DNA from: Melioribacteraceae bacterium
GTDB lineage: Bacteria > Bacteroidota > Ignavibacteria > Ignavibacteriales > Melioribacteraceae
DNA: 64,000 bases
Assembly: GCA_021740785.1 (NCBI GenBank)
Contig: JAIOZI010000001.1
Coordinates: 62,001 to 126,000 of the forward strand
Direction: 5' to 3'
The notes under the pieces were generated by a model that was not told the DNA's origin, searched no databases, and was given only the letters and a program-made list of their open reading frames with translations. Positions 23,735-48,288 of this stretch are shown one piece after another. Each line of letters starts with the position of its first letter. The stretch's first letter is position 1. Both the position numbers and the translations under genes were made by a program.

Positions 23735-24259
23735 GTGGCGGCTAATGAAAACAAAGCTAATCAGCCGAAGACCGCTTTCGGTCGTTACATGGTTTACAAA
23801 TTCATACCAGCATATGCAAATAATGTAAGCGGTGTTGTTTATATGGGCGCAGCAATTCTTATTATTATAGTTGGTTTACGAGGCTTGGGAAAAGTTGCCG
23901 GAGAATTGGCAATAGTTCCTAAATTTTTGCTTGATGCTGAAGGAGCAAAGATTGATCCAAACTGGGTTATGTTAGCTCTCTTTTTAGAATTCTTTTTATT
24001 AATGATATTAGCCACTGTTACATTTTTTACTCCTGAAGAAGCTCATGGGCCCGGTGAAGAAACGGCTGATGAAAAGCCGGCAGTTGAACGCCCGGATTTC
24101 AAAAAGGAATTGGAGCATCTTAAAAACTTAACTGATGAAGAAGTCAAAATGATTGAAACTTATCTGGAGAAATTTGAATCAATACAAAATAAGATTACTC
24201 AGATTCAGATGAACTCCATGAAAGCTCTTAGCTCCATGAAAGACACGTTAAAAAGTTAA
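23735..24259 (+). CDS. gldL: GldL/PorL-like inner-membrane motor protein
   Basis: GldL and GldM form the proton-driven inner-membrane motor of type IX secretion and gliding. This 174-residue protein has the matching plan. Two membrane helices lie at about 36-55 (YMGAAILIIIVGLRGLGK) and 77-99 (VMLALFLEFFLLMILATVTF), followed by a cytoplasmic tail with a coiled coil (about 120-174). The second helix contains a buried Glu (LFLEFF), the position of the proton-carrying glutamate in GldL. The start is GTG at 23735 after GAGGAGG. It is followed at once by the GldM-like gene. Similarity is by topology and key residues rather than long identity, so it is a divergent member. Confidence 0.7.
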   Translation: MAANENKANQPKTAFGRYMVYKFIPAYANNVSGVVYMGAAILIIIVGLRGLGKVAGELAIVPKFLLDAEGAKIDPNWVMLALFLEFFLLMILATVTFFTPEEAHGPGEETADEKPAVERPDFKKELEHLKNLTDEEVKMIETYLEKFESIQNKITQIQMNSMKALSSMKDTLKS

Positions 24260-24299: not shown

Positions 24300-24917
24300 A
24301 TGAAAAAAAGCATGGTGTATTTCATATTATACATCGTACTCATCACAGAGTTACTTATAGTTATACTTGAACGTGATGAACTTGAGGAGAAAGAGCACGC
24401 AGTTAAAACAGAGATGATCGAAACTATCGCAGATGCTTACAAGAAGGGTATTATTCTTGATATTCCTAATAGGGTTACAGACTATAATATCAAAAGTACT
24501 GCTGAACCTGATACGATTCTTATGAGTGTACAGGGACTAGTTTCGGATGAAGAGGCTCATGCAGTAAAGTACTTCATTTTAGTATCTGAAGACTCAAAAA
24601 ATTCTCCTCCTGAATGGCCTGAAGGCGGACTTACTATCGAAAATGGTACTGAGAATTACTATATTGAAAAAGATCCAGGTACCGGGAACGCTAAGTTAAT
24701 AGTCACTTTCAGAAACCAAGGTGAATTTACGTTCAAAGCACATGTGGAATTAGAAAGACAATTCCCGAAATATCTAGACGCAATGCCTGATTGGAAGGAA
24801 GAATTAATTCAAGAAGTTGGCGAAATGAAAGAAGCTCGAAGTAACGATGAATTCTTTAGAATTGATGCTAAATCATTAGGCGGTGTTAAGAAAAAAGAAG
24901 TTGAATTCTTCTTCTAA
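24300..24917 (+). CDS. GldM/PorM-like subunit, short form (membrane helix plus first periplasmic domains)
   Basis: A 205-residue protein with one N-terminal membrane helix (residues 4-23, MVYFILYIVLITELLIVI) and an acidic helical stretch to about 55. A small beta domain follows (about 70-160). GldM has this single helix inserted in the GldL ring and then a helical bundle and beta domains, but it is about 500 residues long. This protein ends after what would be the first or second periplasmic domain. The gene order directly after the GldL-like gene supports the role. The remaining domains may be supplied by the next gene. There is no sign of a frameshift: the next gene has its own signal peptide. 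Confidence 0.55.
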   Translation: MKKSMVYFILYIVLITELLIVILERDELEEKEHAVKTEMIETIADAYKKGIILDIPNRVTDYNIKSTAEPDTILMSVQGLVSDEEAHAVKYFILVSEDSKNSPPEWPEGGLTIENGTENYYIEKDPGTGNAKLIVTFRNQGEFTFKAHVELERQFPKYLDAMPDWKEELIQEVGEMKEARSNDEFFRIDAKSLGGVKKKEVEFFF

Positions 24918-24929
24918 AAATTTATTAAA

Positions 24930-24948
24930 GGGGGAAGAAGATTCCCCC
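24930..24948 (+). other. Hairpin between the gldM-like gene and the next gene
   Basis: GGGGGAA (24930-24936) pairs with TTCCCCC (24942-24948) around a 5-nt loop. It has no following T-run, so it is unlikely to terminate fully. It may partly attenuate or protect the mRNA and so set the ratio of motor to downstream gene products. Confidence 0.5.
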
Positions 24949-24967
24949 TGAATTTATTAATGATTGA

Positions 24968-26059
24968 GTGAGGGTTGATATGAAAAAACTTTTACTTCCT
25001 ATTGTTCTTTTATCAACATTACTATATGCACAACCAAGTAGTATTCAAGATACTGTTTATGCGAGTACTTTTGAGGAATTTAAGGTTCCCGGTGACAAGA
25101 ATATAGTACTAGCTAATGTTGTTGGCTTGGATTTTACAGCTCAACTACTTGACGCAAATATGAATTCTATTCGTAATGTGGAAAAAGTATGGCAATATCC
25201 GACAGAGGCTGAAATTAGAAGACAAGTTTCCGGTGGTCGAGGAACTACTGTTCAATTTGCTTCTTTCGAAACTGTAGAAGAAAAGGGAACATATTATATT
25301 AAGTATGATATTAATGTCCGTGGTGAGCAGGGCAGTGGAAGCAGGACTGTTTACTATATGGTTGTGGTTGATTATCCAACGATGGCTTCAGCAGTAAGCC
25401 TCAGTGATAAATATTATTATTCCGAATCTGAAAAGTTTGGAATAGCAACGGTAGAATTTAGTAATCCTAATGCTTACTCTTATAGAGTTGTTGACGGCGG
25501 CGGAAATGTATTAAGTGAAGGTGCTGGAACCGTAGTTGAACTGGATGATGTTCTGAATGACATAAAAAATGTTGGGAAAAATTTAACCGTAGAGGGTTTA
25601 TACGACGGGAAAAAGTTTAAATTTATTCAGAATGGTGATCCGACCCCTAAAGAGTCTGAATGGACTTTTCAAATTGCACCTTTAAATTTAGAAGAATTTA
25701 CTTCATGGTTAAGAGATGATAAAAAGCAGGATCGTGATATTCCTATTCTTAGTGCTTATGGTGATCCTCAGTCAACAATGAATGTATTATTTACTTACAT
25801 CGGTAATAAGGAATCAGGATTTGTAGTACAGCGCCCTGATATCGGTGGACTAAGTGTCACATCAGAACCTGCGAACCTACTAGAAAGTTTTAACTATTTC
25901 CCAGCTGGTAGTTTTCAGTTTGTTCAGTTATTTATTAGTCAGGACTACTTAGATGGGATAGAACAATACGCTGAAATTGAAGCTAAAATTAATATTCGAT
26001 TTCGAACTCAATTCGGTGAGAATGTAAATAGAACTTACGAAGCATTACTTTATAAATAA
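24968..26059 (+). CDS. Periplasmic beta-rich protein, possible detached GldM C-terminal domains
   Basis: A 363-residue exported protein. The frame begins MRVDMKKLLLPIVLL; the upstream residues make the ATG of MKKLLL (24980) an equally good start. The signal peptide ends near LLYAQ. The rest reads as several beta-sandwich domains with Gly/Val/Tyr-rich strands (TYYIKYDINVRG, RTVYYMVVVDY). GldM has a series of such periplasmic domains after its helix, so this may be the detached outer part of a split GldM linking the motor to the outer membrane. That is inferred from gene position and fold impression; no motif proves it. It is 50 bp from the previous gene and 19 bp from the next. Confidence 0.5.
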   Translation: MRVDMKKLLLPIVLLSTLLYAQPSSIQDTVYASTFEEFKVPGDKNIVLANVVGLDFTAQLLDANMNSIRNVEKVWQYPTEAEIRRQVSGGRGTTVQFASFETVEEKGTYYIKYDINVRGEQGSGSRTVYYMVVVDYPTMASAVSLSDKYYYSESEKFGIATVEFSNPNAYSYRVVDGGGNVLSEGAGTVVELDDVLNDIKNVGKNLTVEGLYDGKKFKFIQNGDPTPKESEWTFQIAPLNLEEFTSWLRDDKKQDRDIPILSAYGDPQSTMNVLFTYIGNKESGFVVQRPDIGGLSVTSEPANLLESFNYFPAGSFQFVQLFISQDYLDGIEQYAEIEAKINIRFRTQFGENVNRTYEALLYK

Positions 26060-26078: not shown

Positions 26079-27623
26079 ATGAAAAAGATTTTTTTCATCA
26101 CACTAGCTTTATTGACAACGCAGCTATTTGCGCAGAGTGTCGAGGATTATCTCGACAAGATCGATCTAAAGCTCGAAAAGGACAAAGCTTATCTCAATCT
26201 TTTCGTTGTTCCTTGGGAGGTATCTAACAATGAAAATGATCTCTTAAAGAATATTCCCAGAACGGACGCAAGAGAACCATTCAATTATGTTTTATCTGAT
26301 GCCTATAGATATGAGATAGTTTTTATCAAGGAGGCATTGGATCTTGATTCAATGGTTATTTTGTATGTTAACGAAATCAATACACCTACTGCAGCCGGTG
26401 AGGGATTATTCACTGCTGCCGGAGCTGGTGGCCCTGATACAACAATAGCTTTGAAATTCAAGGACATGTATTCTCTAAAGAAAAACCGTCCTGAAGTATA
26501 TGACGCTTTTTACGAGATGGTAAAGAAATATGTCCTTTTAACAGGTGAAGAAAATATCCAGGATATTCTTCGTATTGACCCTGATGAAGATATTAAAACA
26601 AGTTTGGGGTTATCTTCGAGAGACAATACCGATTATCTTAGATATATGAGAGCCAATACATTTTCTCATTGGTATCCAAAGGAGCAGGAAAAAACATCAG
26701 GCAGAGGAAGAGGACGGGGCACTGAAGAAGTTGTATCATCTCCATATAGAGTTGGGGTTAGTTTCTCAAGTCTCAGTTTCTCACATGCCGAATGGATGAA
26801 ATTTGGAAAAATTGGCGGAGCCAGCCTGGAATTAACAATGGATGAAAAAGTTGTTAACGTTCTGCCGTGGCAGTCGATGAGATTAGGAGTTGGATTTAGA
26901 CTCTTGTTTTCTATGAACCAGGAAGGTGGGCCAAATAATTCGGATTTTATTGATGCAAATTTTATGGCAAGAATTAACTTACCTTCTGACTTTTTCTTAG
27001 ACGGCAAGTGGCAATTCCAAAATAACCCTGTTATTTTCTCTGATGGGCCAAGATTAAATTTTGCCTCCGGTTTATCAGGCGACATTACACTTACACGTCC
27101 CTTTACATTGCCGTTTCTAAATTTATATTTTTCAGTCAGTGATCAGGATGTAAGTAGTCCCAATGTAATGTTATCCGGAAATAATAAATTCAACCGTGGC
27201 GGAAGTTATGCATATTTCACTTTCAATCAACTTGAAACTACGATGTCTTTCTTCTGGAATACGAGTGATGATTTCACGGGAAGATTGAAAATGGATATAG
27301 GTTTAGGTTACTATGATGTTTGGAGAGCCTATTATATTGGTGGAAATACGGCAGGGAAGGAATTAGTACAAGACAAATTTGCTCCCATTATTGCAATTAG
27401 TTATAATTTTGTGCCAATCGGCAGCGAACCGCTTTTCGGTACATCCCTAAAGATGTTCGATTCCCAAATAAAAGTAAAAGGCTGGATTAAGTTGGTTGAA
27501 TTCAGCGGTCACAAATTTAGATTCGAAACTTTATATCAAACCGCACCGGTTGCAAGACAATTAAGAGATTGGGAAGTGGATGGCGGCTTTTTAGTTCAAC
27601 TTCGTTACCGTTATGGTCTTTAA
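26079..27623 (+). CDS. Outer-membrane protein family A, copy 1 (unrecognised, with an RGRG linker)
   Basis: A 514-residue protein with signal peptide MKKIFFITLALLTTQLFAQ. The N-terminal domain (20-200) is acidic and alpha/beta. A short basic linker follows (SGRGRGRGTEE, near residue 207). The C-terminal 290 residues are rich in alternating hydrophobic strands and end in QLRYRYGL, an outer-membrane beta-barrel-type C terminus. I do not recognise the family. The second copy at 29055 shares the N-domain pattern, the RGRG linker, the LPWQSM motif and the RYRYG end. It is probably the outer-membrane part of the machine driven by the upstream motor proteins. That role is inferred from operon structure only. 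Confidence 0.6.
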   Translation: MKKIFFITLALLTTQLFAQSVEDYLDKIDLKLEKDKAYLNLFVVPWEVSNNENDLLKNIPRTDAREPFNYVLSDAYRYEIVFIKEALDLDSMVILYVNEINTPTAAGEGLFTAAGAGGPDTTIALKFKDMYSLKKNRPEVYDAFYEMVKKYVLLTGEENIQDILRIDPDEDIKTSLGLSSRDNTDYLRYMRANTFSHWYPKEQEKTSGRGRGRGTEEVVSSPYRVGVSFSSLSFSHAEWMKFGKIGGASLELTMDEKVVNVLPWQSMRLGVGFRLLFSMNQEGGPNNSDFIDANFMARINLPSDFFLDGKWQFQNNPVIFSDGPRLNFASGLSGDITLTRPFTLPFLNLYFSVSDQDVSSPNVMLSGNNKFNRGGSYAYFTFNQLETTMSFFWNTSDDFTGRLKMDIGLGYYDVWRAYYIGGNTAGKELVQDKFAPIIAISYNFVPIGSEPLFGTSLKMFDSQIKVKGWIKLVEFSGHKFRFETLYQTAPVARQLRDWEVDGGFLVQLRYRYGL

Positions 27624-27638
27624 TAAAAGGAAGGAACT

Positions 27639-29012
27639 ATGAAAAAAATATTATTATTCATAGCTGTGTTTTTGTTTTCCACTAGTCTTTTTGCACAAGA
27701 AGAAGCTAGTGAAGTTCGTGAACTGCAGACAATATTTAACAGTCTGGAATACAATACAATAGCATTTGATGATCTGAAACGTAAATGGATCATTAATGAC
27801 CCTGCTCTTGTTCGAGATGTTTACAGCAGGTTTATTGTAAATGATGTCTTGAGATTAGACGGGCAGAAAGTAAGTTCGGATGTTGTTAAAGAAAGGTCTG
27901 AATTGGTTTTTGACGGTGAAGTTTATTTAGACTTGCGTCAAAGATATTTTGATGATCAAATTGAACATTTTGCTTTCCTTCCTGCAAGTGAAGTTGGTAA
28001 AGAAAATCCCGTCTATCTATTTGATCCCATTGATGATGGATTTTATTTAAGAAATATTGTCGGCGCTAAATTATATCAAAAACTTAAGAGCCAGGAATAT
28101 TATTTCTCAAATATTACAAAAGAAGAATATGATGTTAAACCGGGTTACTATTTTGATATAGACCTTAATTTATTTGATCCAAAAGTTACATTCTGGACGA
28201 CTACTTCCGAATACCGCAATAAATATTTACTTTCATTTTTCGGGCAGTGGGGAAATGATAAATTTTTCCTTCCCGGCTGGTTTGCTCCTGAAATGTATAC
28301 CGGGCTCAATTTAACTTTCTATGATTACTTAACAAGTGATCCGCGAAAATATACTTATTCTGTTTCTGTAGGTACAGGATTGACTACGGGTCATACTTTT
28401 ACTAGTGATCTTCCTCCCGGTAGAATTGACAAATCAGCAGATAACCTGTATGCAAAATTATCTGGTGATATTGGGAAATTTATATTTGATGATTTTGAAG
28501 ATCTTTATTTGGACATAGAAGTTTGCATGACTTATTCTGATTATCGTGTAGCAGATATTAATCCGGTAAGGAAATATGAATTTTATGCCATTAGGGACTT
28601 TTTTACAATATCTGCGACCAAACGAAATCTATTCAATCTTTACGATTTAGGGATGTTTGAAGCGGGACTTGGAATAGCAACACATTCTGTTCATCATTTT
28701 GAAGTAGATCCGGCTCAAACAAAGTTAACTCAATTAGATAATAAAGATTATATGGATAGATTTAATCATTTTGTTGTTGCCAGTGCCGGTATAAATAGAA
28801 CCGGTGGTTTAATTCAACACAACTTAACAACCATGCTGGGTTATGATGTAACAAATGGTATCGGTTATGTCGGCGCTAACCTAGAAGTTATGCTGAGTGA
28901 TACTTTCGGGATGATGATGAAATTTTACAGCGGTTTTGGTGTTGATACATCAACTCCTTGGCGAGCAGATACGTATATGGTCTTCTCACCGGTATTGAGA
29001 ATTAATTATTAA
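27639..29012 (+). CDS. Outer-membrane protein family B, copy 1 (unrecognised)
   Basis: A 457-residue protein with signal peptide MKKILLFIAVFLFSTSLFAQ. A helical N-terminal domain (about 25-150) contains ELQTIFNSLEYNTIAFDDLK and ALVRDVYSRFIVNDVLRLDG. The rest has barrel-like strands and ends FSPVLRINY, with an aromatic final residue as in outer-membrane barrels. The copy at 30570 matches along its length (same LEYNT-AF-DLK, GWYYP/GWFAP and FSPVIRINY landmarks). The family is not one I know; it is not GldN. It has a good AAGGAAGG ribosome site, 15 bp after family A copy 1. Confidence 0.6.
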   Translation: MKKILLFIAVFLFSTSLFAQEEASEVRELQTIFNSLEYNTIAFDDLKRKWIINDPALVRDVYSRFIVNDVLRLDGQKVSSDVVKERSELVFDGEVYLDLRQRYFDDQIEHFAFLPASEVGKENPVYLFDPIDDGFYLRNIVGAKLYQKLKSQEYYFSNITKEEYDVKPGYYFDIDLNLFDPKVTFWTTTSEYRNKYLLSFFGQWGNDKFFLPGWFAPEMYTGLNLTFYDYLTSDPRKYTYSVSVGTGLTTGHTFTSDLPPGRIDKSADNLYAKLSGDIGKFIFDDFEDLYLDIEVCMTYSDYRVADINPVRKYEFYAIRDFFTISATKRNLFNLYDLGMFEAGLGIATHSVHHFEVDPAQTKLTQLDNKDYMDRFNHFVVASAGINRTGGLIQHNLTTMLGYDVTNGIGYVGANLEVMLSDTFGMMMKFYSGFGVDTSTPWRADTYMVFSPVLRINY

Positions 29013-29054: not shown

Positions 29055-30566
29055 ATGAAAAATAAATATTTCATAATATTTCTTATACTTTTAGTCTATT
29101 CGACTTTTGCACAGACAGAAGTCGATAGATATTATGAGAAGATTGAGGATAAAATTAATAACGATAAACGTTATTTGGATTTATATACTGTTAATTTTTT
29201 GGAATCTGAAGTTGACCGCTCAATTTTCTCAAACATTCCCAAATCCGTATCGGATGAATCGTTTACAATTCAATCGGGAGAAGGTGTAACCTATAGTTTT
29301 ATATATCTTCCCGAAACAATAGAAACTGACTCACTAATTTTACTTGAGTTAAAAGAGATTGTTGATCGTTCGTCAACGGGTGAAGGCGGTTTTTTTGAAG
29401 CAGCTTCCGGCGGGATACAGATTGATACAAATATTGCTCTTTCATTTCGTGATCTGCAGAATCTTTACTTTGAAAACAGAGAAATGTACGATCGTATGTA
29501 TGATTTTGTTGTTAGTAAAGTAAATGAATACGAACCCTATTCATTATTAAAGATAGATGTTGACAAAGACATTAAAAAAAGCAAGGGAATCTCCGGTAAA
29601 AATAATCAGGATTATTTAAACTATAACTGGGTAAATAGCAGACACTTTTTTCCAAAACCACTTGTCCAAAAATCTTCCAGAGGCAGAGGTAGAGGTAGAG
29701 GTGAAGAGACAGCAGCTTCTACTCAGCATATAATTGACGCAAGCTTTAGTCATGGAACCTACTATAACCCGGAATATATGAATTTTGGATTTAGTATGAT
29801 CAGCGCAGAGCTAAATTCAAACACGAAAGTATTAAATCTACTCCCTTGGCAGTCGATGACCATGTCATTAGGAATCAGAACCTTAATTACGTTATCCGAC
29901 GAAGTACAAAATATTTATGACGATATTCTCATTGATGCAAAAATTATGGGCAGGTTCGGAATTAATATGTCCTCGTTTTCTCACCAGATACCAACAATTT
30001 TTACTGATCCGCCAAAATTAAATGTTGGTTCAGGAGTCGTTTTGGATTTACACACGTCCAGAATTTTCGGATTACCTTTTATCAATCTTTACTTTGCTTT
30101 CGGCTCTAAAGATGTAACTAATCCCTATGTTTCTTTTGGTCCTGCAGATAGCGCTACAGCCTTTTTTACTTCATATCAGTGGGAAACCACAATGTCTTTC
30201 TATTGGAATACCAGTGATTCTAGAAACTTCAGATTAAGAATGGATATCGGCGCCGGAGGTTATGATGTTAACAGAGCTGTATATTATAAAGGAATTACTG
30301 AAGCGCTTATTTATAATAATATTCAGCCGGTGATCAACTTTCACATGAGTTTTGTCCCTAAGGATAGTGAACTCCTGAGCGCCAACTTTAAGTTTTTTGA
30401 CGGGATTATTAAATCTAACCTCTGGTTCAAAGTATTTGAATTAGAACCGAATCATGTTTTTAGATTTGAAACAACATTCATGACCTCACCTTTTTATCGT
30501 GGTGTAAAACCATGGGAGAATGAAGGTGGTGCAAGTATTCAAATTAGATATAGATATGGTTTCTGA
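29055..30566 (+). CDS. Outer-membrane protein family A, copy 2
   Basis: A 503-residue paralogue of the 26079 gene. It has a signal peptide (ending YSTFAQ), an acidic N-domain, the repeated basic linker SSRGRGRGRGEE near residue 210, the shared LPWQSM, TMSFYWNTSD and RLRMDIG segments, and the C terminus QIRYRYGF. The two copies differ enough for the duplication to be old. It is followed after 3 bp by family B copy 2, preserving the A-B order. The two copies may form hetero-oligomers in one complex or serve different cargo. Confidence 0.6.
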   Translation: MKNKYFIIFLILLVYSTFAQTEVDRYYEKIEDKINNDKRYLDLYTVNFLESEVDRSIFSNIPKSVSDESFTIQSGEGVTYSFIYLPETIETDSLILLELKEIVDRSSTGEGGFFEAASGGIQIDTNIALSFRDLQNLYFENREMYDRMYDFVVSKVNEYEPYSLLKIDVDKDIKKSKGISGKNNQDYLNYNWVNSRHFFPKPLVQKSSRGRGRGRGEETAASTQHIIDASFSHGTYYNPEYMNFGFSMISAELNSNTKVLNLLPWQSMTMSLGIRTLITLSDEVQNIYDDILIDAKIMGRFGINMSSFSHQIPTIFTDPPKLNVGSGVVLDLHTSRIFGLPFINLYFAFGSKDVTNPYVSFGPADSATAFFTSYQWETTMSFYWNTSDSRNFRLRMDIGAGGYDVNRAVYYKGITEALIYNNIQPVINFHMSFVPKDSELLSANFKFFDGIIKSNLWFKVFELEPNHVFRFETTFMTSPFYRGVKPWENEGGASIQIRYRYGF

Positions 30567-30569
30567 TAT

Positions 30570-31952
30570 ATGAAAAAACTACTATTAATAATTTTATTTT
30601 TACTGGGCATCCAAGTTTATGCTCAGGTTCCCTCCGAAGACAACAAGCTGGAGCGGCTGGATATTATATATCGAAACTTGGAATATAACACAACTGCATT
30701 TAATGATCTAAAAGAAACTTGGAATATTACTGATCCTGTCTTTGTTCGAGAAATCTACAATAAATTTATTGTGGAAAATGCTTTACGGATTGAAGGGCAA
30801 AAACCTTCTGTCGAAGTAATTAAAGAAAAATCAAAAGATATTTATGAAGGAAACGTTTTTATTGAATTGCGAAAAAGATACTATGATGATGAAATTGAAG
30901 TTTTGAGATTTTTTACAGAAGCAGTTGATGAAGAAGATACAACTCGTTCCGATTACTTTTTTGATGAATTTAATGATCATATTTACATTCAAGAAGTTCT
31001 TGGGCAGAAAATTTATGATAATCTTAAAGCGCAATTCTATGCATTAAATGATCTAACTAAAACCTATTATGATAGTAAGATTGCTTATGCATTTGATATT
31101 TACCTGAATTTGATTAATCCCGAATTGATGTTCTATTCATTAACTACGAACGATAAAAATAAATATTTAATATCATTCGTAGGAAAATGGGGGAATGATA
31201 ACATAGTTTTACCGGGCTGGTATTATCCTAATTTTATTGTTGGAGCAAAAGTTACTTATATTGATTATCTCATTAACAATAAACCGCATGATACGTATAG
31301 CGCAACTGTTGGAATTGGATTGGATGCAAGACAGCCTACATTTCAATATGATGAGGATGAATTTGGGAAAAGACTATTCAGCTCCGGATCAAATTTATAT
31401 TTTAAACTAACAGGTAATCCTCTTACTTTTATAAATCCAACCTGGAGAGATTATGATTTTAATCTTGAAGGTGCGTTTGCATTAACGGAATTTAATACGG
31501 ATAATTTTAATCTCGGATATATTTCTAAATTTTACTCGACTAGAAATTATGTTACACTGAACGGAAAGTATAAAAATATTACTAATTTGATGGGCTTGGG
31601 ATGGGTAGATGCTGGAGTGGGTTTGGCTATGCATGATGTTTATAATTATTTATTTGATCCCAGATCTGTAACCTTAGATCAATTAAATAGTGGTTTTAAA
31701 TTCGGTGTTAACCTAGAGGGGAGTCTAAATAATTATACAGGTTTGCTTCAACATAATGTCGGCGTTCAGGTTAATTATAACTTTTCGGAAAGTTATGGTT
31801 ATCTTGGATTAAAAACTCATTTTATGCTTAGTAATTCCATTGGTTTCGATTTCAAAATATTTGGTTCATTTACTACTTCATCCGAGCCTTTACCGTTTTA
31901 CAGGTTGGAAAGTTACTTAGTATTCTCTCCTGTGATCAGAATCAATTATTAA
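30570..31952 (+). CDS. Outer-membrane protein family B, copy 2
   Basis: A 460-residue paralogue of the 27639 gene. It has signal peptide MKKLLLIILFLLGIQVYAQ, a helical N-domain with IYRNLEYNTTAFNDLKETW, a strand-rich remainder, and the end FSPVIRINY. It is the last of the four outer-membrane genes before the giant adhesin, 74 bp upstream of it. The function is unknown. Its presence between the motor genes and the adhesin suggests a role in exporting, moving or anchoring the giant protein. Confidence 0.6.
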   Translation: MKKLLLIILFLLGIQVYAQVPSEDNKLERLDIIYRNLEYNTTAFNDLKETWNITDPVFVREIYNKFIVENALRIEGQKPSVEVIKEKSKDIYEGNVFIELRKRYYDDEIEVLRFFTEAVDEEDTTRSDYFFDEFNDHIYIQEVLGQKIYDNLKAQFYALNDLTKTYYDSKIAYAFDIYLNLINPELMFYSLTTNDKNKYLISFVGKWGNDNIVLPGWYYPNFIVGAKVTYIDYLINNKPHDTYSATVGIGLDARQPTFQYDEDEFGKRLFSSGSNLYFKLTGNPLTFINPTWRDYDFNLEGAFALTEFNTDNFNLGYISKFYSTRNYVTLNGKYKNITNLMGLGWVDAGVGLAMHDVYNYLFDPRSVTLDQLNSGFKFGVNLEGSLNNYTGLLQHNVGVQVNYNFSESYGYLGLKTHFMLSNSIGFDFKIFGSFTTSSEPLPFYRLESYLVFSPVIRINY

Positions 31953-32026: not shown

Positions 32027-35000
32027 GTGATACGAAAATTAGGTAAAAGTTTTTTTTTACTGAGTTTGTCGTTGTTAACATCTCTAACTTTTGCACAAGA
32101 GACTAGTTTACAACCTTCAACTCCACCCGATACAACACAAAATGTGGACGGCACGAAAGTAAAAACAATTTCTCTTTCAATTCCAAATGGCGGTGAAGTT
32201 TGGCAAATTGGAAAAAACAAAACTATCACATGGACAAGTACTGAAATTGTTAACATAAAAATCGAATACACAACAACCGGCGGAACTTCATGGGTGACCG
32301 CAAATCCATCGGTTACGGCAAGTTTGGGAAAATACACTTGGTTTCTTGATCCCGCAACTGTAAATGCTTCCCAGGAAGCAAAGATTAGAATTTCCGATGT
32401 TGATAATGCTGCCATATTCGATACGAGTACAGCCGTTTTTACAATTAGCAGCCTTGATTTTAACACACCAAATGATAGCAGCAATATTCAAGTTAACAGG
32501 GTAACACCCATTAATTGGGATGCCAGCGCCGATATTAATTTTATCAATTTGGAGTTTTCTTCTAACGGGGGAACTTCATGGAATTCAATTACTGCTAATT
32601 ATGATGTAAATAATACACCGTTCAATTGGACATATACAGGCAGTTCTTCTTCAATTTTATTGAGAATAAAAGATTCTGCAAATCCAACTTTAGTATCGGA
32701 TCAAATAACTCTCTTTCCCAGAAAATTAGAAGTTACTTCACCTAATGGCGGAGAAAATTGGTTCGCCGGATCAACTCACAGCATTCAATGGAACAGCTCA
32801 AATGTGACTAATATTGATATAAAATATTCTGTGGATGCAGGTCCCTATCAGGATATTGTAACAAATTATTCTGCAGGAAGTGTTAATTATATATGGACTG
32901 TACCCGATGTAGTTTCAAATGAAGTGAGAATTAGAATATTTAATAGCGCTGATGCTTCAATTTTTGATGAAACAGACAGCACATTTACAATAAGTAATCT
33001 TGATCTTACGTTTCCCATCGGAGGTGAAGGAATTGAATCCGAATCAAATCAAACTATAACATGGAATTCCAATATTGCTGGAAATGTGAAGATTGAGCTT
33101 TCTACAAACGGCGGCTTAACTTTTCCAAATGAATTGGCGACCGGTATTCCCGCTACTCAAGGTTTTGCAAATGTAACATTTCCGGATGCTGCCACTAATC
33201 AGGCTAGGGTAAAAATCACAAGTCTGCTTGATCCAACGATCTCCGTGACGAGCACTTCAAACTTTACTATCGGTTCAATTTCAATAATTTCTCCCAGCGG
33301 TGGTGAATCGTGGTTGTCGGGTACAACTCATGCAATAAATTGGACGGCAAGTTCAGGCATAAGTATTGTAAAAATCGATTATTCCACCGATGGTGTGACC
33401 TGGTTTAATATTACTTCTACTGCAAATGCAAGCGCTGGGACATATAATTGGTCTATCCCGCCTGCATTATCAGCAAGTACTGCATATATAAGAATATATG
33501 ATTCTGCAACTGAATTAAACAAAACAAATATCAGCAATGTTTTTTCCATTGCTCTACTAAATCTTACAAATCCCAATGGTAATCAAGCAGTTCATGCCGG
33601 TGAAATCGAAAACATTGCCTGGAACGCAAGTGCGAATATTACAAATCTGACTATAGAATACTCAACAAATTCCGGAACTGACTGGAGTACTATTGCAACG
33701 GGCATTGATGCATCTCTCGGGTTGTTTGCCTGGAATGTGCCATCAGGGTTATCCACGAAGAATGGCAGAGTAAGAATTACAGCGGAAAATGACGGAAGCT
33801 TTACTCGAACAAGCGTAAATGATTTTAAGATAGGTGACCTTGATGTATTAACTCCGAACGGAGGCGAATCTATTGGCAGTGGTTCAGTCTACACGGTAAC
33901 GTGGACTCGAACTGCAAGTATCGATTCACTTCAAATACAGTACTCCTTAGATGGAGGCGGATCATATATTAATATTCCCGGTGCAGAGGCGGTAAATGCC
34001 GCATCAGGCTCATACAATTGGGTTGTGCCGAATTTCGGTACTACAACCGCACGAATAAGAATTAGAGATGCAGAGTATAATACACTTTTAGATGAGAGTG
34101 ATAATAATTTTACAATCGCAAGATTACAAGTAACTACTCCAAATGGCGGTGAGGGTTACTCTCCAGGTGCTGCACAAACAATAACATGGATTAGTAGTTC
34201 GGTAAACCAGATTAGCGTAGAATATTCCTCCGACGGCGGATCTACATGGTCAACAATTGCTTCACCTGTTAATGCTGCTGATGGCAGCGTTCCATGGACT
34301 GTCCCTGCTTCACCTACCTCTCAAGGACGAATTAGAATTGTCAGTCTTGATGACCCTTTAATTAATGACATGTCAAATAGCAATTTTAAAATTGGTTCAG
34401 TCGAAATCACTACTCCTAACGGCGGAGAAATTTATCAGTCAGGTGATACCGAAACTGTTACTTATGATTTCGATCCGAGCATAACCAGTATTGATATTGA
34501 ATTATCAACGAATAATGGTGTTAGTTGGAATCCCGTGCAATCCGGTGTTACTGCAACAGGTACCTACAGTTGGACGATCAGTAATGTTGCAACAAGTAAT
34601 GCTTTATTAAGAATCAAAGATTCCGATTCCCCAAATCTATCGGATGTGAGTGATGGTACATTTAGTATAAAGAGATTATCTCTCACGACACCCAACGGCA
34701 ATGAATTTTATATGGTGGACAGCACCTATAATATAATATGGCAAAGCGGAAATATTACAAATGTAAAATTGGAATATTCAATTGACGGCGGTAGTAATTG
34801 GAATATTATTACTGCTTCTACAAATGCCGCAGCAGGTTTATATGCATGGACTGTTCCGGATAATGCGAGTAGAAACGCAATTGTTAGAATTAGTGATGCT
34901 GATAATCCGGATAAAAATATTTCTGATGTGAGTAACGCTGTATTCACAATAAATAAGGTTGATGTAAAAACACCTATCGGTGGAGAAAATTTTGTTGTTA

Positions 35001-38000
35001 ATGATATTAGAGCAATTACCTGGGATGCACATACTTCCGTTGCAAATATTAAAATAGAATATTCTACTAATAACGGAACGTCTTGGAACACGGTAGCCGC
35101 TTCCGTTGCGGCGGCAAATAAAACTTATAACTGGACAATCCCCAACACACCTACATCACAGGGAAGAATTAGAATTAGTGATGCAGCCGATAATACAGTT
35201 TATGATATTAATGATGCTGCATTTGCAATCGGAAGTGTTCTTCTTACTGCTCCGAACGGCGGTGAAAGATGGCAGGTAAATTCAATTCATCAAATTACTT
35301 GGACTACAATTACTACTATTGCAAATGTCGATCTGGAATATTCCCCGGATAACGGCACAACTTGGATTTCCATCGTTAATAATATTAATGCGAATCTTGA
35401 ATCCTATGATTGGACTATACCAAACAACATAACTCCAAATGCCAGGGTTAGGGTGAGCAGCTCTTCAGACCCATTGATTAATGATGTTAGTAACGGAGCT
35501 TTTGATATCGCCAATCTTCAAATTACAACTCCGAACGGTGGAGAAGTAGTTCAAATTGGTGAACCACTAAGTATAACATGGAACGCTGAAAATATTGATT
35601 CTGTCAATATAGATTTTAGTTCGAATAACGGGTCCACATGGCAGTCTATTGCTGCAAATTATCCTGCGCCAACTGAAGCATTTAATTGGACTGTGATTGA
35701 TGCCCCCACTCAAAATGCCTTGATAAGGATTTACGATAGTGAATTTAACGCAGTTGCTGATGTAAGTGATGCTGTGTTCAGGGTATTGAGATTACGATTA
35801 ACATCTCCAAACGGCGGTGAAGGATGGCGGTTAGGGGAAAATTACAATATCACCTGGAATTCAAGCGGAATCACAAATCTCAATATTGATGTTTCAACTA
35901 ATGCCGGTACATCCTGGATTGATCTGCAGGATAATGTGAACGCAGCAACAGGATCTTACAATTGGACTGTCCCCGATTCAATTATTGGAAACCAAGTAAA
36001 ATTGAGATTAGTAGATGCAGCTAATCCGAATGTTAAAGATGAATCCGATAATAATTTTACTGCAGGTAGAATCACCATAACAAAACCAGTATTAAATGAA
36101 GTTTGGCAGGCTGGTTCTATTGAAGTTATCAATTGGACGTCAACCTCAGGCCTCGGCACTGTTAGAATTGAATACAGCATTGATGGGGGAACAACTTTTA
36201 CGGTTATTGATTCATTAAATGCAGATGTTGGAACCTATTCATGGGATGTTCCCGCAGGACTTTCTACATCTAATGCTGTTATAAGAATAGTTCATCTTCA
36301 AGCGGCAACAGATATTTATGATAACTCGGACTTATTCACAATTAATTCTCTGCAATTAACATCACCAACTGGCGAAGAACTTTGGTCGGCAGGTTCAACT
36401 CAGAACATTACATGGAATAGCGCCAACATTACAAATATGAAAATTGAATATTCCCCGGATGACGGTGCTACGTGGTCGACAGTAATTGCTTCAACTCCGG
36501 CTGCTGCAGGTTCATACGCATGGAATATTCCGGCAGGATTTTCATCAGACCAAGCGCTTATAAAAATTAGTGATGCTGCTAATGCTACGATTGTTGATTC
36601 GAGTTCGGCTAATTTTAAAATTGGATCTGTAGTAATCACATCTCCTACATCAGCCGATATATGGCAATCTTCAACGACTAAAAAAATCACGTGGACCGCA
36701 AGTTCTTCGATTAGCTCAGTAAAGATAGAATTCTCAACTAATAATGGCAGCAGTTGGGTAACACCTCCGATAACTGAGGCGATCGATGCATCATTGGGTG
36801 AAATAAATTGGAGTATCGGAAGTAATTATTCAACTAGTAATGCAAGAATACGAATCAGTGATGTCGATTCTGATCTAAACACTGTTGATAATAATATTTT
36901 TGATAATAGCGATCCGTTTAAATTGGTTTACCTTAATTTGAGTTCTCCTAACGGCAGTGAAAATTGGCAGACCGGCAGTATTAGAAATATTACATGGACT
37001 TCAAGCAATCTGCTCAATAACTTAAATCTCTTTTATAGTATTGATGGAGGTAATAATTGGATCAATATTGCAAATAATGTCGCTGCAAATTCCAGTCCTT
37101 ATTCATGGACTATACCGGATGGAATCACTACTACTAGTGCAAGAATAAAATTGGTTTCTGCAGAATATGCTTCAATTATTGACTCGAGCACCAATAATTT
37201 TACATTAAACTCACTTGAACTTACTTACCCCGCAGGCGGCGAAGAATTGCAGGCTGGCAAACAATATAATTTGACGTGGAATTCTACTAATATCAGTAAT
37301 GTACAATTACAATATACTACCGATAATGGATCAAACTGGGCTGATATTACACCATCAACGAGCGCAAGCGGCGGTTCCTACTCATGGAATATTCCCGGCA
37401 ATATCTCATCAAATCAAGCTGCAGTTAGAATACTTCGTGCAGGTGATGCGAATACTCAGGATCAGAGTGCGACATTCACAATTAAACGACTTGAAGTAAT
37501 TTCTCCTGATGGAACAGAAGAATGGCAGGGCGGTTCAACACAAGCAATTACGTGGATTAGTAGTCAAATTAATTTTATCGATATTTTTTATACAACGAAT
37601 AATGGTACAGATTGGATTTCAATTGCATCAAATGTACAAGCATCTTTGGGGACATATAATTGGAATATTCCGGACACAATATTTAGTGAAGAGGCAAGAG
37701 TTAAATTAGTTGATTCAGGTAATAATCTTATAGATGATGAAAGTGATGCTAATTTCACAATTGGTACCTTATCGTTGACTTCACCCGCCGGCGGCGAAAA
37801 ATGGCAGGCAGGATCATCGCACCAAATCACCTGGAATAGCGCTAATATTGACAATGTAAAATTAGAATATTCTGTCGATAATGGAGCTAACTGGATTACC
37901 ATTATTAGTTCGGTTGATGCAGATGCAAAAAATTATAATTGGACTATTGATAACGCAGTTAATACAAATCAAGCATTGGTTAGAATTAGTTCAGCTACCG

Positions 38001-41000
38001 ATGCAAACGTATCCGATCAAAGTGGATTATTCACAATTCCATTATTAGCCGTTACCAGTCCGAATGGCGGTGAAGTATGGAAAGCTGAAGCAACAAAAGC
38101 GATTACCTGGAATTCAGGTAATATATCAACAGTTGAGTTATTTTACACTACGAATAATGGCACTTCTTGGGAGTCAATTTCTCAAAATATTAATGCATCG
38201 TTGGGAACGTATAATTGGTCTATTCCTGCTGGATTAAGTACATCCCAAGCGAGGATTCGAATTGTTGATGAAAGCGATAATACTATTCTAGATAGAAGCG
38301 ATGCTACATTTTCAATCGGAACTTTAGAATTAACTTCACCAGCCGGGGGTGAAAAATGGCAGGCTGGTTCAACACATAACATCACATGGTCCAGCACAAA
38401 TATCGACAGTGTTAAACTGGAGTATTCATTAGATAATGGAACAAGCTGGACTTTAATCAAATCCTCAATCGGCACTTCATTGGGTGTTTATGCTTGGACA
38501 TTGCCAAACAATTCTTCTAGTCAAGCTTTGGTTAGAGTTAGTGCAAGTACCGATCCATCATTCAATGATATTAATTCTGTATTCACAATTGCTTTACTTG
38601 AGGTTACCAGTCCAAATGGAAGTGAAGTATGGCAGGCGGGTTCAACACATCCTATAACATGGAATAGCGGGAGTGTATCGAATATAAATATTTCTTATTC
38701 CTCTGATAATGGAGTAACTTGGAACTCGATTGCTTCGAATGTTGCTGCCGCAGCCGGAACAAGAAATTGGATCATTCCTTCTTCACTTACAACAACTGAA
38801 GCGCTTGTTAAAATTGAGGACGCTTCCGATGCATCAATAGTTGACCAAAGTGATAATATATTCACTGTAAATAATCTTGAACTAACTTCACCTGCGGCAT
38901 CTACAATCTGGCAGGCCGGTACGATTAGAACAATAAAATGGTCCAGCTCAAATGTAGGAAATGTAAAACTGGAATATTCAGTTGATGGAGGCGGAACTTG
39001 GAATGAGATTACTTCGTCAATATCTTCATTACTAGGTTCACATGATTGGAATATTCCAAGTGCACTCAGCACTACGCAAGCAAGAGTTAGAATTACTTCT
39101 GTTGATAATCCATCAGTTAGTGATGTAAGTCCGGATTTTACAATTAATCAGCTTCAGTTAACATCACCGGGCGGAGGGGAACAATATCAAGCTGGTTCCA
39201 CCCAAGCAATTACATGGACCAGCTCGAATGTGAATCAAGTTAATTTGTCTTACAGTACGGATAACGGTGTAAACTGGACGACCATTGCGAACAATGTTCA
39301 AGCATCTCTCGGAACAAAAAACTGGAATATACCCGGTACGATTTCAACAAATCAAGCGCGTGTAAGAATCGTTGACGCAACAACATCAACTACAAGGGAT
39401 TCGAGTAGTACTTTTACAATCGGGACACTAACACTAACTTCCCCGCTTGGAGGAGAACAATGGCAAAGCGGGAAAACTCATCAAATTTTATGGACCGGCA
39501 ACGAAACTTTTGAAAATATTTCAATTGAATACTCAATTGACGGAGGAACTTCATGGAATTTTATTTCAGCAAGTTACCCCGCTGATTCAGGATCATACTC
39601 TTGGAGTATACCAACTGCAGTATTCAGCAATCAAGCAAGAATTAGAATTAAAGATACAAGCGGCGGTTTTGTTCAGCAGACAAGCGCAGATTTTACTATC
39701 AGCAGATTAATTGTCACTTCACCAAACGGCGGGCAATATTGGCAATCAGGAACAACAAAGCAAATTACCTGGACGGCTGATCACATCAATAATCTAAAGA
39801 TTGAGTTTTCATCAGATGGGGGAACTAGCTGGTCTGAATTAGCAAATTCCGAAGATGCATCAAGTGGTACTTTTGACTGGACGATTACACCAACGACCAC
39901 ATCAACAAATAATGGAATTATTAGACTTAGCGACGCTTCAAACTCAACCGTTTCTGATAGAAGTGATGCTGTGTTTACAGTTGGAAACATTACCGTTACA
40001 ACGCCAAATGGCGGAGAGGTAATTCAAGCAGGACTGCCATATACAATTACATGGAGCAATACGGCAAGTGTATCCGATGTAAAGATTGAATATTCCATTG
40101 ATTCAGGAACTTCATGGCAAACTGTTATCAATTCAACGGAAGCGGATGGTTCTTACAAATGGAACGTTCCCGGAACACTCTCATCAAGCACATCTTTAAT
40201 CAGGATAACTGATATTGCATCCAGTGGTGGAATTCTTGATGTGAGTGACAATGCATTTACCTTCGGCGCTTTGTTATTAACATCCCCTGACGGCGGCGAG
40301 GCATTAAAAGTTGGTTCTACACATGCAATTACTTGGACTGCCGGTACTAACATAGCTAATGTGAAATTAGAATATTTTTCACCAACAGCCGGATGGCAGA
40401 ATATTGTTGGATCAACTCCTGCCGCAGCAGGAACTTATAATTGGACAGTTCCGAATTCACCGACAGATTTGGCAAAGGTTCGTGTGTCGTCCGTTGCAAA
40501 CCCAACAATTATAAACGAGAGCGACAGTACATTTAGAATTGCAAATTTGGCTGTTACAAGTCCGAACACTGCAGTCAAGTGGCAGGTCGGTACAACTAAA
40601 GCAATCACTTGGAGCAGGTCTTCAAATGTTGCAAATATAGATATCTATTATAAAGTCGGAGCCGGTAATTGGGAAAATATTATACTAAATACCGCGGCAT
40701 CAACTGGTACATATAATTGGCTGGTTCCAGATGAAACATCTACATCTGCAAAGATAAGAATTGTTGATTCCCAAGCGCCTGCTGAAATTATTGACAGCAG
40801 TGATGTATCATTTACAATAACAAAACTAAATTTAACAAGCCCTGATACAAGTGTTAACTGGTTATCCGGTTCGACACAATCGATTACGTGGGAAGCAAGC
40901 TCTGATCTTGCTCAGCTCGAAATTAAATATTCGACCAATAATGGCAGTACATGGAATGTAGTCACTAACTCAGTTGCCGCAGCAGCAGGAGAATATAGCT

Positions 41001-44000
41001 GGACGATTCCTTCTTCAATTAATTCCAGCAATTCTCTGATTAAAATTAATGATAAGAATGTCACAACTATAACATCAACCTCCGGTTTGTTTACAATTTC
41101 GGAAGCTAGTTTAACGCTTACATCACCTTTAGGCGGTGAATACTGGCAGGCAGGTAAACAATACCAGATTACTTGGAATGCGACTTCCAATGTTGACAAT
41201 ATTAGTATCGAATATTCACTCGACGGCGGGGGAAGCTGGAATAATATTGAATCACCGGTTTCTGCGGTAAGCGGAACATATAATTGGACGATTCCAATAT
41301 CTCTGCAAAGTACCCAAGCACAAATTAAAATTACTGATGCAGTTAATTCATTCTTAGCTGATTCCAGTGATTTTGATTTTACAATCGGGAATGTTACTCT
41401 AACCTACCCGAACGGAGGCGAACACTTACAAGCTGCCAGAGTTGAGAATATAACCTGGACTAACAGTGCAAGTGTTGCAAATGTAAAAATTGAACTATCA
41501 ACAAATGGCGGAACGAATTGGATAACGCTTGTTCCATCTACCCCGGCTGCTGCAGGCAGTTATGCATGGACGGTTAATAATCTGCCGACTTCAAACGCCC
41601 GGGTTCGTGTTAATGATGCCGCTTCATCTAATGGAATTACAGATCAAAGTGAAAGTGATTTTTCAATAAGCCTGTTGGAATTAACTTCACCAAACGGTGG
41701 AGAAGTTTATCAGGCAGGGGATAGTAAGACAATTTTATGGACCGCTAGCGCCGACATTGCGACTGTTCAATTAGAATATTCGACTGACGGTGTTAATTGG
41801 AATGCAATTAATACTACTCCGATTGTAGCTTCATTGGGTGAATATACTTGGTCTATTCCACAGACACTATGTTCAACAAATCTTCAGATTCGGGTTAAAA
41901 ATTTCGCATTCCCACAGGTATTGGATATCAGTGATGCCGTGTTTACAGTAAAGCAATTGGATATTGTAAATCCGACCGGTGGAGAAAATTGGCAGGTGGG
42001 TACTACACAAAATCTTGATTGGGATGTATGCGGTATTCTGAATATTAAAATTGAGTATTCATCTAATAACGGAACAACATGGAATACTATCATAAATTCT
42101 CATGATGCAACACAGGTTTACAATTGGACAGTTCCTTCTGTGATATCCTCTCAAATGTTAGTTCGTGTTACAGATGTTGTTGATGGAAATATCAGGGATA
42201 CAAGTGGTCTATTCTCAACATTCAATCCTGCACTTAGTTTAACCTCTCCTGATGGCGGCGAACACTATCAAGCCGGTGAGACTTATAACATCACCTGGTC
42301 AAGTTCTCTGATCTCAAATATTAAAATAGAATTTTCTGATGATGACGGAATTTCATGGACGTCTTTAGCAAACTCATTTGACGCCGCATTAGGCTCTTAT
42401 CCGTGGAGTATTAATCAGTCAGTTGAAACAACCAGCGGATTGATCAAAATATCGGATGTTGATAATCCGCATATTCAAGATTCGAGCGCTAATTCATTTA
42501 CCGTAAGTAAATTACAGATTACAAGTCCAACGGGCGGAGAATACTGGCAATCCGGTACAACAAAAGCAATTACTTGGACAGCAAGCGCAAGTATCCCGAA
42601 TGTGAAAATTCAGTATTCTACAGATGACGGTTCAACATGGAATAATATTGCCGGCGCGACAAGCATTGCATCGGGAGCCGGATCCTATTCATGGAATATT
42701 CCATCGAGTGTTTCATCCGTGAATGCAAGAATACGAATTCAGCATTCAACAAATGCTAATATCAAATCAATTTCTCCTGAAGCGTTTACGATTGGAAATG
42801 TTGCAGTGGTTCAGCCTAACGGAGGAGAACTGCTTCAGGCTGGAAAAACCGCTTTGGTAAAATGGACAAGAAGTACAAGTGTTGCTGAAGTATTAGTAGA
42901 ACTATTTGATTTAAATGATAATACAATTATAACTTCTAAAACCAGCAGCGCTGCTTCCGGTCAAACAAATTTATTAATTCCATCCGATGCTTTAACGGAT
43001 TCTGCAATTGTAAGAATCAGTGATAATGCAAGCAGTTATAATATTTTGGATTCTAGTGATGCATCATTCGCGATTGTGACATTAGATCTCACAAAACCAA
43101 ATGCATCAACCAATTGGCCTTCCGGTTCAACACAGGAAGTTACCTGGACTAACAGTACAGGTATAAGTTTAGTTAGTCTTGAATATTCACTTAATAACGG
43201 ATTAACATGGGATACTATCGGGACAAATATTAACTCAAGTCTGGGTAAATATAATTGGCCAATCCCGAATGATATTAGTTCAAATGAAGCTAAAGTGAGA
43301 GTTTATAGTCCGGCAAATCCATCTATTGCAGATACGAGTGATAAATTTAATATTTATGTTAGATCGCTTACTGTTACGAGTCCTGACGGCGGTGAACATT
43401 TACCTGCAGGTGATGTATATTCAATAAGATGGACAAGTAATTTCGTGATCACAATTCAAATAGAATTCAGCTCAAACAATGGTACAGATTGGGATACACT
43501 TACAACTTCAGCAATTGCTTCTGATTCAGCATGGGCTTGGAACATTCCGAGTGACCTAGATACAAAACAAGGATTGATAAGAATTCGAGATATTACTAAT
43601 CCATCCCTTGTTGATGTTAGTGATGCGAACTTCAGCATTGGCTCAATTGATGTTACAAATCCAACATCCGGAGAAAAGTGGCTTGCAGGTTCAGATCAAA
43701 ATATATCATGGAATACCACATCTTCTGTTGAGTTGGTTAACATTTATTATTCATTAGATCCTACTGCTAATGATTCGGATTGGGTCTTGATCAAAAATAA
43801 TGTTGATGCATCATTAGGAAATTATTATTGGGCTGAAGTTCCCTCTGTTGAATCTTCTAGGGCAAGAATTATAATTACCGATGCGGAATCGTCAAAATTA
43901 ATAAAGTCTTATAGTGATGAATTTACAATTGCCAGGTTAGAAATTGCTTCACCTAACGGAGGTGAATTTTGGCAGAGCGGAACAAGCAATCTTATTGAAT

Positions 44001-47000
44001 GGTACGCAAGTTCAAGTATTGGTGTTGTTAATATAGATTTATCGACAGATAATGGTGTGACCTGGTCTACAAGTATAGCTTCCAATGTTAATGCCGGATT
44101 AGGTTCAATAAATTGGAACATCCCGGAAGGATTGATTTCTGATTCCGCAAAAATAAGAATTGCTGATATTACAGATGCTGCTCTGGCTGATACTAGTGAT
44201 GCAATATTCCATATCGGAACATTGAGTTTGACAAGTCTAAATGATGGCGGAAAGGTATTGGTTGGTCAGACAAGACAGATCACCTGGACTACAAGCCCGA
44301 ATGTGACAAATGTAGATATCCATTATCAAATCGGTGACGGAATTTGGCGCCAGGTTGTACTCGGTCACTCAGCCGCTTCATTAAACTATGACTGGCTGAT
44401 TCCAGATACACCCACTGATACTGCTTATGTTAGAATTAGAGATTCAGCTAATCCAGATTTAGTAGATAGTAGTAATTCATTTACTATCGCAAAATTAGAT
44501 ATCGATTCACCTAATGGTGGAGAAGTTTGGCAGTCAGGAACAACTCATCAGATTCAATGGGAATCTCAATTCCTAAATAATCTTAGAATTGAATTCTCTT
44601 CGAATAACGGTTCAAATTGGACTACTATTTTTACTAATGTTGATGCCTCATCAGGTTCTCACGATTGGTTGATATCTGCTTCACTGTTCACTGATTCGGC
44701 AAAGATTAGAATTAGCGATATGATTGATCCTACTCTTGTTGACAGCAGTCAAAATGTATTTCAAATCGGCTCCGTTCAATTGACTGTTTTTAATTCGGCA
44801 CAAAAAGTATTAGGTACTTCCGAACAACAAATTAGATGGGATTTTTCTAGTTCGATACAAAACATCGATCTTCATTATAAAACTTCAGACGGGGTCTGGA
44901 CACCGATAACTTTATCATATCCGGCAGACTCAATGAAGTATACATGGACTGTCCCGGATATCCCATCTCAGAATGTTTATTTACGTATTCGTGATGCATT
45001 GAATACATCAATCCAAGATACAAATGATGCTCCTATTACAATTGCTCGGTTAAATCTTGCAACTCCTAACGGAGGTGAAGTATGGCAGGCAGGGAATACA
45101 AATCAAATTCAATGGGAATCAGAATTTATTGATGCAGTAAAAATCGAATTCTCTTCGAATAACGGTTCAAATTGGACTACCTTGTATCCTTCGGTTATTG
45201 CATCCGAGGGAACAGTTGACTGGTCGATTCCAACAACCTTATTTACAGACTCAGCAAAAATTAGAATTTCTGATGCGGCTAGTCCGACTTTAATAGATGT
45301 TAGTGAAAGTGTCTTCCAAATTGGTTCATTACAATTGACCGTATTTAATTCGACGCAGAAGATTTTGGAAGGATCTTCACAAGTTTTAAGATGGGACTTT
45401 GCCAGCTCAATTGAAAACATAGATCTGCATTACAGGACTTCGGATGGTGTTTGGAGACCGATTGTTCTTTCTTATCCTGCTGATTCAATGGCGTATAGCT
45501 GGATTGTGCCAGAGGATCCATCTGATTCTGTCTATGTTAGAGTTCGGGATGCATTAAATCATAGTTTACATGATACATCAAATGCACCGGTTACTATTTC
45601 AAGGCTAAAACTCACAACTCCAAATGGAGGTGAAGTTTGGAAAACCGGGACAACTCAATCTATCGCATGGGAAAGTGAGTTTGTTGATCAAATTAGAATT
45701 GAATATACAACAGATACGGATGATTCACCAACATGGCGGAGCTTAACCTCATCGGCTCTAAATGCTGAAGACGGTTCATTTAATTGGGTCATCGACGATG
45801 ATGTAAATTTAGCAAATCCTAATTATAAAATTAGGCTGCGTGATGTTGCTAGTTCGAACATAATTGATACCAGCGAATCAACTTTTACAATAAGTTATAT
45901 AAATCTCATCTCACCTAACGGTGGCGAAGGGCAGCAGCTTGGGACTGCGTTCGACATCGAATGGGGTGTTAGTACGAATACCATATCTAAAGTAAATCTT
46001 TATGTTCAAACCACAGATGGAAGTTTAGTCTGGTCGCCAATTGAACTCGGTTTAGACGCCGATGATTTAACTTACCATTGGTTGATCGATATTACTCCTT
46101 CATCTACAAGTAAAATTAAAGTAGAGGACGCTGACAACCCCGAAATTTATGATGAAAGTGATGATGTTTTTACAATAAGTGAAATTGAATTATTATTCCC
46201 TAATGGAAGCGCGGTTCAGAAAGTTCAAGTTGGAAAGACTTATTCGGTTACATGGAAAAGTACTTATATTAATGATGTGCTTGTTGAGTATTCTGTGAAT
46301 AACGGTGTTAGTTGGAATAGAATAGGTACAGCCTCTGCAGACACTGAGGAAATCAGTTGGACGGTAGATAACGTACCTTCAAGGAATGCGCGTATAAGAG
46401 TAAGTGATTTGACCTATCCGACTATTTATGACGAAAGCGATACAACATTTGCTATTAGTTCAATGAGGTTATTGAATCCGAACGAATTATTGGCATTTAA
46501 GGTTGGCAGTGAAGAAGATATAACTTGGGAAACAACTAATGTTGATACAGTGAGAATTCAGTTGTCGACTGATTCCGGCTTGACCTGGCCTGTAGAAGTA
46601 GCAACAGTTCCAGCCGCTGATGGAACATTTACTTGGTTGGTTCCAAATCTGAAAACTGTTAATGCAAAAATAAGAATTACTGATCAATATGATATAAACG
46701 TCAGTGATATTAGTGATACTACCTTTGTCATCGGGGATTATCCGCAGGTTTCATCGGTTGCTGAATTCCAAAGCGGAACAGTTAAATTGCTTTATGATTT
46801 TGGAACACCGGGTGAGACAATTAGTCTTACAGAGTTGAGTTTCCAGAAAGGTACAAGCAGCCCGATAAACTCAACAGCTTATCTGCTGGGTGATTATTCG
46901 GCAATAGTAGGTCCCGATGTTGATACGATAAAATGGAATTCGAAAGGGAATCTTGATGAATATGAAGGCACTGTTGACGTTATTGTTAAGTTCCAATCGA

Positions 47001-48268: not shown

Positions 48269-48288
48269 AAATTTTATTGGGTAATAAA

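Follow-up and report, generated by a model that had tools for sequence, protein, structure and literature searches.

Must the axle of a gliding-type envelope motor be a single protein chain? The question is raised by a locus in a Melioribacteraceae bacterium (order Ignavibacteriales; a 4.85 Mb assembly, 99.9% complete), studied here within a window, that is, the whole stretch of 64,000 nucleotides that was analysed. The original prediction called the locus a split GldM-like stator. The word "stator" is misplaced, since current models have GldM turning inside GldL as an axle (PMC9389320). No account of such a system in Ignavibacteria was found in the open-licence literature.

Eight genes, all in the same direction, occupy the stretch between 23735 and 48268: L, M, S, four genes for barrel-like proteins and one for a giant repeat protein. 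The features are listed below; "fused chains" are the single-chain counterparts of M and S in sister families.

23735..24259, + strand: L, putative GldL-like ring subunit with two membrane helices, 174 aa
24300..24917, + strand: M, 205 aa, putative inner part of a split axle; matches the fused-chain N-terminus and is hit by the fused-chain profile
24312..24368, + strand: part of M coding for the membrane helix (residues 5-23)
24929..24949, + strand: 8-bp hairpin in the M-S gap, -14.7 kcal/mol
24968..26059, + strand: S, 363 aa, putative outer part of a split axle, exported and predicted to be a beta-sandwich protein; its middle region matches the fused chain and it is hit by the fused-chain profile
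26079..27623, + strand: outer-membrane-barrel-like protein, type A (homologs end RYRYGF/L); putative barrel, from its signal peptide and C-terminal motif
27639..29012, + strand: outer-membrane-barrel-like protein, type B (homologs end FSPxLRINY); putative barrel
29055..30566, + strand: type A paralog
30570..31952, + strand: type B paralog
32027..48268, + strand: giant secreted repeat protein, candidate adhesin, 5413 aa, C-terminal T9SS sorting domain

For M and S, behind a GldL-like gene, this is the layout of open reading frames that had been predicted. In L, Glu85 of helix 2 is invariant and Arg49, at the end of helix 1, nearly so. M has a single strong hydrophobic segment (residues 5-23, mean 2.7), with a conserved Glu17 inside the membrane helix. 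S starts with a signal-peptide-like segment that ends LLYAQ and has no lipobox; its homologs start similarly. The GTG at 24968 is probably the wrong start for S. The ATG at 24980 is likelier, giving 359 aa, because translation from it begins MKKLLLPIV with AGG upstream. The four barrel-like proteins alternate between types A and B along the operon.

Two further genes flank this set. Directly upstream of the motor operon lies a gene for a DUF2254 membrane protein (21917-23530), which is found likewise upstream in 11 of 20 related loci, including the very divergent L042; this protein may have a part in the system, perhaps in anchoring L. The gene on the 3' side of the giant protein gene (48277-49152) encodes 291 aa with a start like that of a lipoprotein (LFSAC), and homologs of it are the last operon gene in two related loci, L001 and L002.

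Are M and S two parts of one chain? Relatives of L were gathered across the class by profile search, and the gene after each was read. In families f35 and f44, the gene that follows the GldL-like gene encodes a single chain of about 490-540 aa, whose N-terminus matches the M profile and whose residues near 280-430 match the S profile. Profile comparison places M on columns 1-152 of the fused chain (Prob 97.1, E 7e-11) and S on columns 258-399 (Prob 96.9, E 1.5e-10), so that both match one chain and in the right order, M then S. In one fused chain, residues 284-431 are matched by about residues 96-243 of S. Coverage of S thus amounts to some 140 columns; the first and last stretches, each of about 100 residues, are without a shown counterpart.

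When a profile made from fused chains only was run against the whole genome in six frames, two matches were returned, and these were the M reading frame (profile 3-45, E 5.8e-7) and the S reading frame (profile 276-405, E 3e-4). At least 150 reading frames of the genome carry a T9SS sorting domain; Ig-like domains abound in some of these, and none was matched. This result is informative because the secreted Ig-like proteins offered the opportunity for chance matches, none of which arose. The idea that M is the counterpart of the N-terminal part, and S of a later part, of a chain left undivided in sister families is well supported. The part of the original prediction that spoke of two proteins in place of one chain has stood; the identification of that chain as GldM has not, homology being only suggestive.

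How widespread is the split, and how did it arise? The profiles of L, of M and of S or fused chains agree on one set of 20 among 58 Ignavibacteriales genomes, and the three genes are adjacent in every locus read; because of this agreement, the L-M-S layout is not a matter of chance. The arrangement is not special to this genome. Another family, f5, also has two genomes with the split layout (L132 and L135). An assembly error or frameshift that cut one gene was considered as a cause and rejected, because 20 genomes show the same split, S having a signal peptide of its own. In an unrooted tree of L, most split loci cluster inside a wider single-chain set and a few fall elsewhere; the branch of the split cluster is weak (80/70) and is based on few columns. 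The tree is compatible with derivation of the split form from a single chain.

Other arrangements of GldL-like genes are encountered in the class. Six loci (L121, L136, L137, L140, L143, and L145) have two pairs of a GldL-like gene and a fused-axle gene in tandem (L-M-L-M), which suggests paired motors. Other families have longer GldL-like proteins of about 325-510 aa without an adjoining M-type gene (L117, L120, L126, L154 and L157, and a second set, L119, L125, L139 and L141). These longer genes adjoin a gene of 1600-1900 aa, which in L117 encodes a C25, PorU-type peptidase, or, as in L125, a gene for an AAA ATPase; some of them are located after dnaK.

Do these proteins belong to the GldL and GldM families? 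The GldM/PorM model TIGR03517 has no above-cut-off match in the whole genome or in these proteins. Across the phylum, 148 genomes were searched with it and 39 gave a match. Within the Ignavibacteriales, no genome among those tested has a GldM match, and the GldL/PorL model TIGR03513 exceeds its cut-off in 0 of 58 genomes; four GldLs used as a control match it strongly. Direct membership of M and S in the GldM family was rejected, as Pfam, NCBIfam, a PDB sequence search and profile comparison gave no match: neither protein matches a family or a solved structure in these searches, and the M and S profiles, each by itself, do not match GldM. No GldK or GldN was found among the neighbouring genes with Pfam or NCBIfam. 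A full-length GldM elsewhere in the genome, paired with another GldL, would have told against the original prediction; the search for a full-length GldM or a second GldL-like gene found neither, and there is no second GldL-like gene beside SprA or beside three of the four C25 peptidase genes.

L has the two membrane helices and the helix-2 glutamate of GldL, and its invariant Glu85 lines up with GldL E49, a residue essential in Flavobacterium for secretion as well as gliding (PMC8986121). A comparison of L with GldL by a core-only profile is weak, in that 3 of 100 hydrophobicity-preserving shuffles score as well. M has the single N-terminal membrane helix of the GldM type, followed by an exported remainder. 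Mid-length single chains of family f5 match GldM domains D2-D3 over 202 columns (P 2e-4, Prob 46), whereas S alone does not. Their score is 41.4; 60 block shuffles averaged 19.1 and reached at most 32.6, and the reversed profile scored 28.2. Homology to GldM D2-D3, by way of these f5 chains, is only suggestive.

The AlphaFold2 model of M (pLDDT 82) consists of a helix at residues 2-49, the membrane helix running on to residue 49, and then one Ig-like domain. GldM D1 is a five-helix bundle (PMC5790014). The 205-aa protein had been expected to hold the helix and first domains of GldM; the model shows one Ig-like domain and not a helical D1. The model of S is beta-rich and poor (pLDDT 65), limited by alignments that comprised sequences from the window, L001 and L002 only. 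Foldseek searches with both models returned generic Ig-like matches only.

The predicted hairpin between M and S is present at 24929-24949, with a z score of -3.05. Hairpins of comparable strength (z about -2.7 to -4.9) occur in the window and in all seven other loci in which the gap between M and S exceeds 50 nt, and are absent from loci in which the gap is 41 nt or less or the genes overlap. They recur by position, and their sequences are unrelated among loci. Their putative role might be to lower the expression of S and the genes downstream, or to protect the L-M transcript; the hairpin may set the ratio between the two proteins here, but as a general control of that ratio it was rejected, because it is limited to loci with long gaps.

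What might such a motor drive? Barrel genes lie 3' of L-M-S in all near loci for which enough contig is available. The giant protein is encoded directly 3' of the operon in four genomes, namely this one and three relatives (5237, 4635, and 4833 aa), and does not adjoin it in several other relatives; a fifth homolog is on a separate contig, in a genome that is fragmented (G015). These five genomes, all of which have the operon, are the only ones with a full-length match to 531 residues close to the C-terminus of the giant (5/20 vs 0/38). The probability that all five would fall among the 20 operon-bearing genomes of 58 by chance is about 0.003 if the genomes are taken as independent, and these are related. 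SprA, the T9SS translocon, is found in 57 of 58 genomes. The sole exception is G029, which carries the operon; at 82% completeness and in 740 contigs, this genome may lack SprA because it is incomplete. A SprA-like fragment with an in-frame TGA was observed at G000:C17:55056-55955; the full SprA gene is elsewhere, on C88.

These observations bear on three other explanations of the locus. S could be an independent partner on the periplasmic or outer-membrane side, PorN-like or a ring protein, with M alone as a complete short axle like ExbD or TolR; the likeness of S to the fused chains would then come merely from an Ig-like domain type in common. The ease with which Ig-like domains are recruited speaks for this idea, as do the shortness of the matching region in S and the coexistence of S with a longer M (314-375 aa) in two divergent loci, L042 and L043. 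It does not account well for a fused-chain profile that matches nowhere else in a genome rich in secreted Ig-like proteins, or for the kept chain order, with S directly after M in every locus. An independent S is rather unlikely, and of the three it is the one to be taken most seriously.

Is L-M-S instead the core motor of T9SS secretion, a functional PorLM whose split axle powers the SprA translocon? In favour of this, the genome has SprA and many proteins with T9SS sorting domains but no recognised GldL or GldM, and elsewhere in the class, in other families, an L-type gene stands beside a C25 (PorU-type) peptidase gene. The distribution disfavours the operon as an obligatory or general secretion motor of the order, because 38 of the 58 genomes are without it and all 38 encode SprA; secretion in the order would have to do without it, unless an undetected replacement motor operates there, and the proposal is improbable. 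Lower still is the probability that L-M-S is an ExbBD- or TolQR-type energy transducer, serving uptake or envelope upkeep through the barrels, with the giant protein as an incidental neighbour. No ExbB, ExbD, TolQ or TolR model matches, and the C-terminal region of the giant is confined to operon-bearing genomes; in favour of this last explanation are the small size of L and M, the barrel genes in the operon and the relatives in which the giant is not adjacent.

The explanation preferred here, to which we give a probability of about 0.55, is an ion-driven envelope motor of the gliding type that drives an adhesin through a two-piece axle. The locus would encode a machine working like GldLM, a 5:2 rotary motor. 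L would form the ring in the inner membrane, and two copies of M would provide the axle helices and the first periplasmic domain; the 5:2 stoichiometry of L to M is assumed by analogy with GldLM. The conserved membrane Glu and Arg, together with the gene layout, point to a proton motor made of L and M. S, exported separately, would dock on M and supply the outer part of the shaft, as the fused homologs suggest, so that the axle would be two proteins here and one in sister families. Synteny argues for a contact between S and the barrels, which would receive the motion; adjacency and co-occurrence suggest that the barrels carry the giant protein. The motion would probably be relayed to this T9SS-exported adhesin, which the motor would move or deploy at the surface in the manner in which GldLM drives SprB.

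Several points weigh against this explanation: the match to S spans about 140 columns, the M and S profiles do not match GldM, a long M stands beside S in two loci, the S model is poor and the giant is not always adjacent. A more specific form of the preferred explanation has been considered, in which the adhesin motor is a dedicated one, apart from the T9SS secretion motor, and its axle proteins are joined non-covalently in the periplasm, with S as a clutch or exchangeable coupling that links the inner-membrane motor to the barrels. This is put forward tentatively, and it may well be wrong.

A shaft that nature has cut at a defined point would show which parts of a GldM-type axle need to be one chain and which need only bind. 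The L-M-S motor may also separate two jobs that GldLM combines in Flavobacterium, secretion and the movement of adhesins. The distribution raises a question of its own: what powers the T9SS in an order with near-universal SprA but no recognised GldL or GldM?

How does the locus compare with known motors? As in GldLM/PorLM (TIGR03513, TIGR03517), a gene for a two-helix ring protein is followed by one for a single-helix axle protein, the periplasmic domains are probably beta domains, the helix-2 Glu of the ring protein is aligned, and there is a link to a giant surface protein exported by the T9SS. In contrast to GldLM/PorLM, no model exceeds its cut-off here, the putative axle is made of a 205-aa and a 363-aa protein and not of one chain of about 500 residues, a helical D1 is lacking, and the operon is not universal among relatives that bear SprA. 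The fused L-M motors of sister families (L121, L136, L137, L140, and L143-L145) share the order of a GldL-like gene and then a chain matching M and then S. They differ in that the chain is one of about 490-540 aa, that two L-M pairs often stand in tandem and that the downstream genes are others. A third comparison is offered by the GldLM pairs of family f23 (L212:4260-6136, L213:4605-6598, and L214:5788-7662), in which GldM is only about 380 aa. Unlike the proteins studied here, these are single chains that profile comparison clearly assigns to GldM (Prob 97 over D2-D4), with a partner just as clearly assigned to GldL (Prob 97); yet, as in M, the membrane helix is followed directly by beta domains, with no helical D1 between them.
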